A DNA stretch of 64,000 nucleotides from Alphaproteobacteria bacterium (GTDB taxonomy: Bacteria > Pseudomonadota > Alphaproteobacteria > Reyranellales > Reyranellaceae), in contig VGCH01000015.1 of NCBI GenBank assembly GCA_016870115.1, positions 1 to 64,000 of the forward strand. The letters run 5' to 3'. Below are positions 52,734 through 56,070 of this stretch, in pieces (position 1 is the first letter of the stretch; each line of letters starts with the position of its first letter). Position numbers and translations under genes: made by a program. The notes beneath the pieces are model-generated. The model saw only the letters and a program-made list of their open reading frames with translations. It searched no databases and was not told where the DNA came from.

Positions 52734-53288
52734 ATGGACGCCGCCGCTGCTGCCGATTGTCTGGAGGCGATCGCCCGGCACCAGGACCGCGCGGCGTTCC
52801 AGCGCCTGTTTGCGTACTTCGCGCCGCGCGTGAAGGGCTTTGTCATGCGCGGCGGCGCCGACGCCGACACCGCGCAGGAGGTGGCGCAAGAAACCCTGAT
52901 CCTCGTATGGAGAAAGGCCGCGAGTTTCGACCGATCGCGGGCCTCGGCGGCGACCTGGATCTTCACAATCGCCCGCAACAAGCGCATCGATCTCCTCCGT
53001 CGGGGCAACAAGCCGGCCATCGACCCCGAGGATTGGCTGGCCGCCTATGCCTCCGATTCCGGTGAAATCGGCAAATCCATTGACGCGGAACAGACGTACA
53101 ATCGCGTGAAGGAGTTGCTCGGCGACCTCTCCGCGGACCAGATGACCGTGATTCGTAAGGCATTTTTCGAAGACAAGACCCATTCCGAAGTGGCGGCCGA
53201 CCTCGGTCTGCCGCTGGGCACCGTGAAGTCGCGCATTCGACTGGCTTTGCAGCGGCTGCGGGTCGGCCTCGACGGAGATGCGACATGA
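52734..53288 (+). CDS. ECF RNA polymerase sigma factor (ECF11/RpoE-ChrR type)
   Basis: A 184-residue extracytoplasmic-function sigma factor. Region 2 runs from RLFAYFAPRVKGFVMRGG to DTAQEVAQETLILVWRKAA and WIFTIARNKRIDLLRR (-10 recognition; about 20-88). Region 4 is MTVIRKAFFEDKTHSEVAADL and GLPLGTVKSRIRLALQRLR (-35 recognition, about 130-175; quoted in parts). The 4-base overlap with a ChrR-like gene identifies the ECF11 group, which in Rhodobacter responds to singlet oxygen and organic peroxides. The ATG at 52734 lies 5 bases after the M20 stop. I do not see an ECF11-type promoter immediately upstream. Confidence 0.88.
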   Translation: MDAAAAADCLEAIARHQDRAAFQRLFAYFAPRVKGFVMRGGADADTAQEVAQETLILVWRKAASFDRSRASAATWIFTIARNKRIDLLRRGNKPAIDPEDWLAAYASDSGEIGKSIDAEQTYNRVKELLGDLSADQMTVIRKAFFEDKTHSEVAADLGLPLGTVKSRIRLALQRLRVGLDGDAT

Positions 53289-53935
53289 CCCGGCACCGCC
53301 CCTCGGATGAACTGCTTCTCGACTACGCCGCGGGCGCGCTGCCGGCCGGTCCCGCGCTGGCTGTGGGCGTGCATGTCGCGCTGGAACCCGCCTCGCGCCG
53401 CCTGGTCGATCGCCTGGGGGCGTTGGCCGGCGTATTGCTGGAGAGCGACACAGGCTCCGACCTTCCCGCCGATGCGCTGGACCGGGCACTGTCGCGTCTC
53501 GACCGCGAGCCGGTGGAGACGCGCTCCGGTGCCCAGGGAGAGGTCGATGGTCCGACCTGGGCGCCCGCGCCGCTGCGCCGCCATATCACTCAGGGCGTGC
53601 GCTGGCGTCGTGCGTTCGGCGGCTTCGAGCGTGCCGAACTCGATCTCGGCGGTGCCGGCCATCGTGCCGCGCTGCTGAAGCTAGCGCCGGGTCGCGGCCT
53701 GCCGATGCACACGCATCGCGGCGAGGAGATGACGGTCGTTCTGCAAGGCGGCTTCACCGATGCCAGCGGCAGCTACGGCGTCGGCGATTTCTGCGTTGCC
53801 GGCGACGGCGAGCACCGTCCCATCGCCGATCCCGGCGAGCCCTGCATCGCGCTGATCGTGCTTGAGCGGCCGATCGTGCTGACCGGTCCGGTCGGGCGCC
53901 TGCTCAATCCGCTGGTCGGTCGCGACCTCATCTGA
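53285..53935 (+). CDS. chrR: ChrR-like anti-sigma factor lacking the zinc-site cysteines
   Basis: A 216-residue cognate anti-sigma factor with an N-terminal anti-sigma domain (about 1-70) and a C-terminal cupin (about 100-210). The helix pattern SDELLLDYAAGALP is that of ChrR. In ChrR the sigma-binding domain is held by Zn2+ through a His, then H-xxx-C-xx-C. Here the segment reads H30-V-A-L-E34-P-A-S37, so both cysteines are replaced, and the N-terminal histidine is shifted (RHRPSDE). The cupin keeps its HTHRGEE and later His ligands. It overlaps the sigma gene by 4 bases. It may hold sigma without zinc, or have lost function; see the findings. Confidence 0.83.
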   Translation: MTRHRPSDELLLDYAAGALPAGPALAVGVHVALEPASRRLVDRLGALAGVLLESDTGSDLPADALDRALSRLDREPVETRSGAQGEVDGPTWAPAPLRRHITQGVRWRRAFGGFERAELDLGGAGHRAALLKLAPGRGLPMHTHRGEEMTVVLQGGFTDASGSYGVGDFCVAGDGEHRPIADPGEPCIALIVLERPIVLTGPVGRLLNPLVGRDLI

Positions 53936-53951
53936 GTTCGTTGACCGCTAC

Positions 53952-53992
53952 CGATCCAGCCTTCAGGCTCGCGTTCCCTGAAGGAGGGATCG
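53952..53992 (+). promoter_or_regulatory. Hairpin that sequesters the Shine-Dalgarno of the AhpD-like gene
   Basis: Just before the ATG at 53993, CGATCC-AG-CCTTCAGG (53952-53967) pairs with CCTGAAGG-AG-GGATCG (53977-53992), leaving a 9-nt loop and one symmetrical AG/AG internal loop. The ribosome-binding AAGGAGG (53981-53987) lies wholly in the 3' arm. As RNA this would block initiation until the stem opens, the layout of an RNA thermometer or other translational switch. A DNA operator is the alternative. Confidence 0.6.
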
Positions 53993-54541
53993 ATGGCACG
54001 CGTTCCATATTTCGATGTCGCCAAGGCGACCGGCAAGCACGCCGAGTTTCTCGGCAAGCTGAAGCCGATGCTGAACATCTACCGCATGCTCGCAAACTCC
54101 GAGCAGGGGTCGAAAGGCTTCCTGCGCATGGGAAATGCGCTGCTCTATCGCTGCGAACTCGATCCCGTGCTGCGGGAACTGGCGATCATCCGCGTGGGGC
54201 GCCTCAGCCGCGCCGCCTACGAGGTTTTCCAGCACGAGCGCATCGGTCGCGAGGTCGGTGTCTCCGAGGAAAAGATCGCGGCGCTGCGTGACGCAACCAT
54301 CGAGGCCGGCGTGTTCAGCGACGCCGAGAAGGCCGTGTTGCGCTTCACTGACGACGTGGTGCGCAACGTCCGTGCCTCCGACCGCACGCTGAAGCCGGTT
54401 GAAGCGCTGATGAGTCGCGGAGCGCTCGTCGAGCTCACGCTGACCATCGGCTACTACATGATGGTGAGCCGGTTCCTCGAGACGATGGGCGTCGATGGCG
54501 AAGAGGGTCAGAGCGAGTGGCTCAAGACAGCCAAGCTCTGA
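53993..54541 (+). CDS. Carboxymuconolactone decarboxylase / AhpD-like protein
   Basis: A 182-residue all-helical protein of the CMD/AhpD superfamily. The core is LRELAIIRVGRLSRAAYEVFQHE (about 60-83, quoted in part), where AhpD peroxidases would have a redox CxxC. Here there is no CxxC, so it is unlikely to be a classical AhpD thiol peroxidase; a carboxymuconolactone-decarboxylase-type or unknown role is more likely. TIGYYMMVSRFLETMGVD near the end is typical of this subgroup. It lies 57 bases after the ChrR-like gene behind a Shine-Dalgarno-blocking hairpin, so it may belong to the sigma regulon. Confidence 0.82.
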   Translation: MARVPYFDVAKATGKHAEFLGKLKPMLNIYRMLANSEQGSKGFLRMGNALLYRCELDPVLRELAIIRVGRLSRAAYEVFQHERIGREVGVSEEKIAALRDATIEAGVFSDAEKAVLRFTDDVVRNVRASDRTLKPVEALMSRGALVELTLTIGYYMMVSRFLETMGVDGEEGQSEWLKTAKL

Positions 54542-54555
54542 CGCGGGAGGCGGCC

Positions 54556-56070
54556 GTGGCACGCAAGGTCCTGATCGCGCAGTTCATGCACGAGACCAAC
54601 ACATTCAGCAAACTGCCGACGACGTTGGACGACTATCGCAAGCGTTTCCTGGTGGAGGGGGACGCCATCGTTCCGCGCTTTCGCGGCACCCGCAACGAAC
54701 TCGGCGGCTACATCGACGCGGCGGAGAAGTACGGCTGGGCGGCGGTCTTTGCCGTGGCCGCCAATGCCACGCCCTCGGGCACCCTGACCCGCGAGTGCTG
54801 GGAGACCATCCGCGACAAGATCCTCGGCGCGGCCCGGGCGATGGGGCGGGTCGACGGCGTCTGCCTGTCGCTGCACGGCGCTATGGTGAGCGAATCGGAA
54901 GACGATGCCGAGGGCGCGCTGCTGGAGGCCATACGCGGCATCGTTGGACGCGAGGTGCCCGTGGTGGCGACCCTCGATCTTCACGCCAACGCGACGCGTC
55001 GCATGGCCGAGCACGCGAGCGCGCTGGTGAGCTACCGCACCTACCCGCACGTCGACGGCTACGAACGCGCAGTGCAGGCCGCGGCGCTGGCGGAAGCGGC
55101 GATGGCTGGCGAGCGCAAGCCGCGCTGCCTCCTGCTTCAGCCCGCGATGCTGGATGGCGCCGACCATGGTCGCACCACCAAGCCCGGACTGATGCGCGAC
55201 CTGTTGGCACGCGCCGATGGCTTCGAGAAGGAGCCGGGGATCAACGTCGTCAGCATCCAGGCGGGCTTCACCTGGTCGGATATCCCGTGGACGGGCCCGT
55301 CTGTGGCGGTGAGCCACGAGCCTGCGGCCGAAGCGCGGGCGAAGGAGATCGCGCGCCTCCTGTGTGACGAAATCTGGCGCCGTCGCGACGAGAACTCGAC
55401 GGACTATCGCCCGCTCGCCGACGGAATCGCGGCCGCCCGCGCCGGTGCTGGAAAGCCGGGTCCGCTGGTGTTGGCCGACGGAACCGACAATCCGGGAGGC
55501 GGGGGCTACAACGACACCACGCCGCTCCTGCAGGGTCTGATCGACGCCGGTGTCGAGAATGTCGGCTTCGGCACGATCTGCGATCCGGTGACGGTGCGCC
55601 AGGCCATGGCCGCCGGCGTCGGCGCCACGATCGATGTCGAGCTGGGGGGGCGCACGGATCCGGCGATGGGCGCGCCGGTCAGGGCGCGGGCCACCGTGCG
55701 GCTCTTGTCCGATGGTCGGTTCCTCAACGAAGGCCCGATGAATGCCGGCGTTCTCACCGACATGGGGCCGACCGCGGTGCTGCGTATCGGCGGCATCGAC
55801 GTGGTGACCATCAGCAACCGCATCCAGACCATCGACTTGCAGGTTTTCCGCAGTCAGGGGATCGAACCGACCCACAAGAACGTCCTGGTGGTGAAGAGCG
55901 TGCAGCATTTCCGCGCCGCCTACGGGCCGATCGCGTGCGAAGTGGTGCTGGTCGATACCGGCGGCATCTGTTCGCCCGACAAGTCGCGCCTGAAGTTCGC
56001 CAAGTTGCGGCGGCCGATCTGGCCGTTCGACGGCATCAACGAACCGTGGCCGGCAGGCAAGGGGAGCTGA
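54556..56070 (+). CDS. M81-family metallopeptidase (MlrC-like)
   Basis: A 504-residue protein with the two-domain M81 layout (DUF1485 then MlrC C-terminal). The start of the conserved region is VLIAQFMHETNTFSKLPTT. Metal-site candidates are HETN near 12, SLHGAMV near 108, VATLDLHAN near 140 and YPHVDGYER near 165. The C-terminal part has DGTDNPGGGGYNDTTPLLQ and DTGGICSPD. MlrC was named for degrading linear microcystin in Sphingomonas, but most homologues occur in amino-acid/peptide catabolic contexts like this one. GTG start with GGGAGG 5 bases upstream, 14 bases after the AhpD-like gene. Confidence 0.85.
   Translation: MARKVLIAQFMHETNTFSKLPTTLDDYRKRFLVEGDAIVPRFRGTRNELGGYIDAAEKYGWAAVFAVAANATPSGTLTRECWETIRDKILGAARAMGRVDGVCLSLHGAMVSESEDDAEGALLEAIRGIVGREVPVVATLDLHANATRRMAEHASALVSYRTYPHVDGYERAVQAAALAEAAMAGERKPRCLLLQPAMLDGADHGRTTKPGLMRDLLARADGFEKEPGINVVSIQAGFTWSDIPWTGPSVAVSHEPAAEARAKEIARLLCDEIWRRRDENSTDYRPLADGIAAARAGAGKPGPLVLADGTDNPGGGGYNDTTPLLQGLIDAGVENVGFGTICDPVTVRQAMAAGVGATIDVELGGRTDPAMGAPVRARATVRLLSDGRFLNEGPMNAGVLTDMGPTAVLRIGGIDVVTISNRIQTIDLQVFRSQGIEPTHKNVLVVKSVQHFRAAYGPIACEVVLVDTGGICSPDKSRLKFAKLRRPIWPFDGINEPWPAGKGS

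Follow-up and report, generated by a model that had tools for sequence, protein, structure and literature searches.

The window analysed here, a stretch of 64,000 nucleotides from the genome of a Reyranellaceae relative (named close homologues in Reyranella and Enhydrobacter), within a group of bacteria from soil and water, contains a carboxymuconolactone decarboxylase (CMD) family gene whose Shine-Dalgarno (SD) sequence is buried in a strong hairpin, at the junction behind an ECF sigma factor gene and its anti-sigma gene. The question raised by this locus is under what circumstances a gene with such a leader may be translated, and whether the hairpin works as a sensor, as a coupling device or as a barrier that only some transcripts carry.

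The hairpin at the chrR-CMD junction

The sequence-only reading had described an AhpD-like gene behind a stress-type sigma/anti-sigma pair, and this is borne out insofar as the gene is a member of the CMD family (PF02627) and the pair consists of an ECF sigma factor and a ChrR-type anti-sigma (TIGR02451). The co-oriented order M20 peptidase, sigma, chrR, CMD and mlrC is kept in most relatives. In the window, the stop codon of chrR (UGA, 53933-53935) lies 57 nt upstream of the CMD ATG, and a sequence scan of this junction found no terminator-like site between the two genes. The features are collected in Table 1.

Table 1. Features of the junction and its neighbouring genes (window coordinates).
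Feature	Position	Strand	Basis or remark
ECF sigma factor gene	52734..53288	+	Pfam Sigma70_r2/r4; conserved neighbour in Reyranellaceae
ChrR-type cupin anti-sigma gene	53285..53935	+	TIGR02451, 160 bits; PF12973
TTGACC, putative -35	53941..53946	+	TTGAC invariant, final C nearly so (27 aligned leaders)
Outer 5' arm, CGATCC	53952-53957	+	Exact letters, RNAfold
Internal loop AG, 5' side	53958-53959	+	Exact letters
Inner 5' arm (anti-SD arm), CCTTCAGG	53960-53967	+	RNAfold; CCTKCAGG arm kept in 28 leaders
CAGGCT, putative -10 (A-11, T-7)	53964..53969	+	Overlaps inner 5' arm; 17-nt spacer; A and T invariant
Hairpin loop, CTCGCGTTC, 9 nt	53968-53976	+	RNAfold
Inner 3' arm, CCTGAAGG	53977-53984	+	RNAfold
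SD, AAGGAGG, within 3' arm	53981-53987	+	Exact letters
Internal loop AG, 3' side	53985-53986	+	Exact letters
Outer 3' arm, GGATCG	53987-53992	+	Exact letters, RNAfold; final base adjoins AUG
CMD family gene, SD buried	53993..54541	+	PF02627, 42 bits; start codon kept in relatives
MlrC / M81-family gene, next in operon after CMD	54556..56070	+	PF07364, PF07171

The hairpin (53952-53992) is present in both the MFE and the centroid structures predicted by RNAfold, and the fourteen pairs that had been read from the letters (six, an AG/AG internal loop, and eight, closing a loop of nine nt) are confirmed by the letters and by both structures. The earlier description of the SD needs some correction: it does lie in the 3' arm, but it is the stem that reaches the base before the AUG, the SD itself being separated from the AUG by 5 nt, and the SD is not wholly within the arm in the Watson-Crick sense, as two of its bases (A53985 and G53986) belong to the AG/AG internal loop.

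A hairpin of this kind may simply be a chance product of a GC-rich leader that was inherited without any regulatory role, in which case one hairpin would be counted many times among the relatives, and the MFE of the whole 91-nt region is indeed unremarkable, with a z of only -1.55 against shuffles. The cost of opening the SD, on the other hand, is 13.7 kcal/mol, while shuffles of the upstream sequence that leave the SD intact average 6.7 kcal/mol (p 0.005, the lowest value that 200 shuffles allow), where folding energies, here as throughout, take no account of proteins or of co-transcriptional folding. In a 364-kb sample of the same genome, where a rough gene caller gave an SD to 111 of its 272 genes, with approximate starts of which some are probably wrong, the SD occlusion of the window ranks first among the 111 SD-bearing starts (15.5, the 99th percentile being 11.8). 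The pattern of the inner hairpin occurs a single time in the 3.56-Mb genome. The earlier argument that the arm length and placement exceed chance is thus upheld by the opening cost, the rank and the single occurrence; given the rank, together with the matched swap controls and the independent stems of other genera described below, a chance hairpin is very hard to credit, more so than any alternative discussed here except the thermometer.

Pairing and leader types in the relatives

The leaders of the relatives are of three kinds, namely long, short and chrR-less. The 28 distinct long leaders carry TTGACC, an ungapped spacer of 17 nt, CAGGYT and then the SD, and in 27 of these 28 Reyranellaceae leaders the SD region is covered by the folded CCTKCAGG arm. 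Among the cultivable relatives, Enhydrobacter aerosaccus ATCC 27094 and Reyranella aquatilis KCTC 52223 have the long form. Short leaders have no TTGACC, and their chrR stop lies a median of 31 nt before the ATG, while the relatives in which no upstream chrR was detected have neither TTGACC nor a close chrR stop. The occlusion of the SD is weak in a few leaders (L004, L006, L049 and L041), no better than in shuffles in L196 (p 0.73), and not above shuffles in five clearly chrR-less relatives (L009, L021, L022, L027 and L035). Since TTGACC is present in the outgroups, the ancestral state was probably the long form.

The sequence of the inner helix is itself conserved, and no double changes were found in it by a plain MAFFT/RNAalifold alignment, the exception being a change from C-G to U-A at its top (L039 versus L046), so that the support for pairing comes from the outer stems, the deep lineages and the exchange of arms between leaders. 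The outer stem varies, being CGAUCC/GGAUCG in the window, GGGGU/ACCCC in L011 and L020, and GGUUG/CAAUCC in L018, and distant genomes present the same layout with unrelated stems, i.e., UCCUCCGG/CCGGAGGA in L200 (genome G001, genus g2), and CUCCGCC/GGCGGAG in L197 and CCCCGG/CCGGGG in L195, both of genus g5.

This replacement bears on the possibility that the inverted repeat is the dyad of a transcription factor acting on a TTGACC/CAGGYT promoter, with the RNA hairpin as a mere by-product, given that the putative -10 and the start region coincide in part with the repeat, whose inner arms (CCTTCAGG/CCTGAAGG) show conservation across the Reyranellaceae. An operator should nevertheless keep its sequence, yet unrelated stems stand at the same place in other lineages, the outer stems change even within Reyranella, and the SD itself falls in the 3' arm, all of which makes a DNA operator highly improbable.

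In the swap test, the 5' parts and the SD-containing 3' parts were exchanged between leaders, with no choice of alignment columns. The native SD costs 9.94 kcal/mol to open, against 6.85 kcal/mol with foreign 5' arms, at a permutation p of about 1e-5 under all three redundancy cut-offs; such p-values are optimistic, as relatives are not independent, and the matched controls share the same relatedness. The first opening-cost version used hand-picked representatives, and the repeat was rule-based and includes the weak case L196, while an earlier version scored on the MFE gave p 0.0009. No swap effect was found in the chrR-less relatives (p 0.77), in five samples of other genes from the window's genome (p 0.12-0.76), or, within the same genomes, at the starts of sigma and chrR (p 0.45-0.75). 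The effect is marginal at the mlrC starts (p 0.05-0.08), a set that includes three genomes in which mlrC is the hairpin gene. The covariation in homologous leaders that had been set as a check is thus found, in the leaders and in the swap tests, as pairing that survives sequence replacement: the hairpin is conserved, and its pairing is kept despite the replacement of its sequence between lineages.

A promoter-like element and a possible choice of transcript

The sequence-only reading did not include a second conserved feature, which overlaps the 5' arm. This is the TTGACC hexamer with the putative -10 downstream, separated by a spacer that is ungapped in all of the long Reyranella leaders and whose sequence varies (27 leaders), save where the arm is paired with the SD. 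Conservation of TTGACC spans five genera and two families; nAnnnT follows it after 17 or 18 nt, as it does in genus g2 (L200), in genus g5 (L195-L197) and in the outgroup family f2 (L201). The -10 variants are weak (CAGGYT, CATCCT, CACTCT and GATGNT), and a strict scan for the sigma-70 consensus called no promoter at TTGACC/CAGGCT. Statistics of TTGAC-anchored promoters, in the 364-kb sample and upstream of tRNA genes, gave no informative signal. The conservation, the spacing and the position nevertheless suggest that TTGACC-N17/18-nAnnnT is a promoter, whose predicted start would be near 53976, where the loop ends, 7 nt after the T-7 at 53969.

The block does not follow one coding sequence. 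In genus g5, CMD is absent and the block of chrR, putative promoter and hairpin stands directly before mlrC, which indicates that the block belongs with the sigma-chrR junction; given that TTGACC is found with these differing downstream genes, the element likewise belongs to the junction behind chrR. A wider regulon of TTGACC-N17-CAGGYT was considered and rejected, as the other matches in 75 genomes of the family lie mostly in repeated, coding-like sequence, and the number of matches per genome is close to that of a reversed-pattern control.

The presence of this element shifts the likely mechanism from a melting sensor to a choice between two transcripts. The sensor had been proposed as a possible RNA thermometer, in which warming melts the hairpin and exposes the SD, and a leader hairpin that buries the SD is indeed the general layout of thermometers, including the ROSE and fourU types. 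The hairpin of the window is, however, far too stable, with a predicted probability of being open of 1e-11 at 37 °C, 3e-10 at 45 °C and 4e-3 at 85 °C, i.e., it is predicted to stay closed far above growth temperatures. The Rfam scan assigned it to no family, those of thermometers included, in agreement with the earlier remark that ROSE and fourU do not match, and returned only a sub-threshold ZTP match on the opposite strand, outside the hairpin. A thermometer is thus the least probable of the alternatives considered here.

In the two-transcript mechanism, a read-through RNA that begins at sigma-chrR or beyond would carry the hairpin, and the translation of CMD from it would be silenced. The promoter over the 5' arm would start an RNA near the loop, which would have a leader of some 17 nt that lacks the 5' arm and leaves the SD free. 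CMD and MlrC would then be translated only upon the firing of their own promoter, insulated from the transcription of the sigma operon. Over 33 leaders, the mean cost of opening the SD is 9.3 kcal/mol in the read-through RNA against 3.0 kcal/mol in the predicted own transcripts, and in the window it is 15.4 against 5.5 kcal/mol, the latter being the highest short-transcript cost among the 33.

We consider it slightly more probable than not that this conserved, sequence-diverse hairpin and its internal promoter make transcript choice decide the translation of CMD, where the role of the promoter, its start site, the existence of read-through transcripts and the block of translation in the cell are the steps that we infer. 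The earlier proposal of a translational switch is in this respect supported in kind, by a conserved SD-burying hairpin whose pairing survives replacement, while the melting mechanism is not. More tentatively, promoter choice may decide translation through a module that is kept for its shape across genera, travels with the junction, and in some lineages appears to have been converted to a coupling hairpin upon the loss of the promoter.

Coupling might also account for the hairpin throughout, if ribosomes finishing chrR open it or reinitiate past it, so that CMD is made in proportion to the anti-sigma, and TTGACC is the promoter of something else or no promoter at all. The short forms, which have hairpins directly after the chrR stop with no TTGACC, agree with this, as a ribosome parked on their stop lowers the mean opening cost from 7.8 to 4.8 kcal/mol. 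RNA unfolding is, in addition, an established model of coupling, with one pair spaced 52 nt (PMC12548453); as in the short forms, the downstream gene of an operon has its SD surrounded by inhibitory structure. The stop of the long forms, however, lies a median of 59 nt away, too distant for a parked ribosome to open the stem, and brings no relief (8.8 to 9.7 kcal/mol), and neither does the stop of the window lower the opening cost when a ribosome is parked on it. Coupling also leaves the conserved TTGACC-N17-CAGGYT unexplained, and the pairing signal of the short forms weakens once redundancy is cut (p 0.16 at the 0.75 identity level). As a general explanation, coupling is therefore unlikely; it appears more likely in the short-form relatives, where the chrR stop borders directly on the 5' arm and the opening cost is predicted to fall with a parked ribosome.

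A switch controlled by a ligand, a protein or a small RNA, with a trans factor opening the hairpin of the operon mRNA under stress sensed by ChrR, would fit the position of a stable, conserved hairpin beside a stress sigma/anti-sigma pair. The sequences of stem and loop are nevertheless replaced between lineages, which leaves only TTGACC and the SD conserved as sites, and no Rfam aptamer matches the hairpin. A trans-factor switch is for these reasons distinctly improbable, less so than an operator, and a riboswitch was rejected, since no conserved aptamer was found and the sequences of the loop and of the outer stem vary.

Known systems and related operons

The closest parallel to the two-transcript mechanism is found in the phage T4 genes e, soc, 49 and I-TevI, where an SD-sequestering hairpin has a late promoter in its 5' strand (PMC3014915, PMC2988022). 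For gene e and I-TevI, it is proven that the early read-through RNA hides the SD and that the late promoters give a translatable RNA (PMC3014915, PMC2988022). Sequestration of the SD in a stable hairpin, a mark of this type, is found here by folding, across the leaders and in the opening cost. As in these T4 genes, the SD is in the 3' arm and a promoter-like element overlaps the region of the 5' arm, so that the upstream-initiated RNA has the hairpin and the predicted short transcript would not. Here, the start site and the repression are predictions, and the present junction, unlike those of T4, is chromosomal, lies behind an ECF sigma/anti-sigma pair of the alphaproteobacteria, and carries a sigma-70-like element where the phage has a late promoter.

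The transposase genes of the IS10/IS50 type are shielded from outside transcription by the folding back of their leader. The likeness, which is a resemblance only, lies in a read-through RNA that folds over the ribosome-binding site, while the locus of the window has no mobile element and its arms are not element ends. A search of the accessible literature found no cellular example of the same arrangement, which is weak evidence of absence.

If the preferred reading is true, a phage-style two-transcript translation switch would be kept in a cellular regulatory operon, a case built on sequence, and a gene behind a stress sigma operon would be insulated from the transcription of that operon without a terminator. 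Given that it is mainly the layout that is conserved, such modules would escape motif searches, and a general scan of operon junctions is suggested, for SD hairpins whose 5' arm is overlapped by a promoter-like element.

The RpoE-ChrR (ECF11) regulons also combine an ECF sigma factor with a ChrR-family cupin anti-sigma, and their motif is TGATCC/CGTA (PMC4336711). A target promoter of this type was rejected for the junction, as TTGACC-N17-CAGGYT differs from TGATCC - 16/17 - CGTA. The anti-sigma differs as well: in the Reyranellaceae, both cysteines of the H-x3-C-x2-C zinc motif have been lost (HVALEPAS in the window), so that ChrR-type sensing of singlet oxygen via this site would fail and the signal must differ. 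The ChrR of the outgroup family (L201) retains the motif (HVALCAQC).

Several Reyranella genomes have paralogous sigma-chrR operons (L186-L192 and L194) without CMD and MlrC, and neither these genes nor the TTGACC element were found in the paralogues L186-L194. Most of these operons (L186-L192 and L194) share, ahead of the sigma gene, a conserved block of approximately GCATGCACAGCTTGCCGGGGTAGACTTTCC, probably a promoter of their own. In the relatives where CMD has no sigma-chrR in front (L009, L021, L022 and L027), a TATGAT-like -10 lies some 35-40 nt before the ATG with no SD hairpin, as if CMD always owned a promoter. Finally, extra strong palindromes, such as CCTCTCCCCCTAGCGGGGGAGAGG, are found between chrR and CMD in L044, L045, L103, L107 and L096, upstream of the SD, and these may be repeated elements or terminators.
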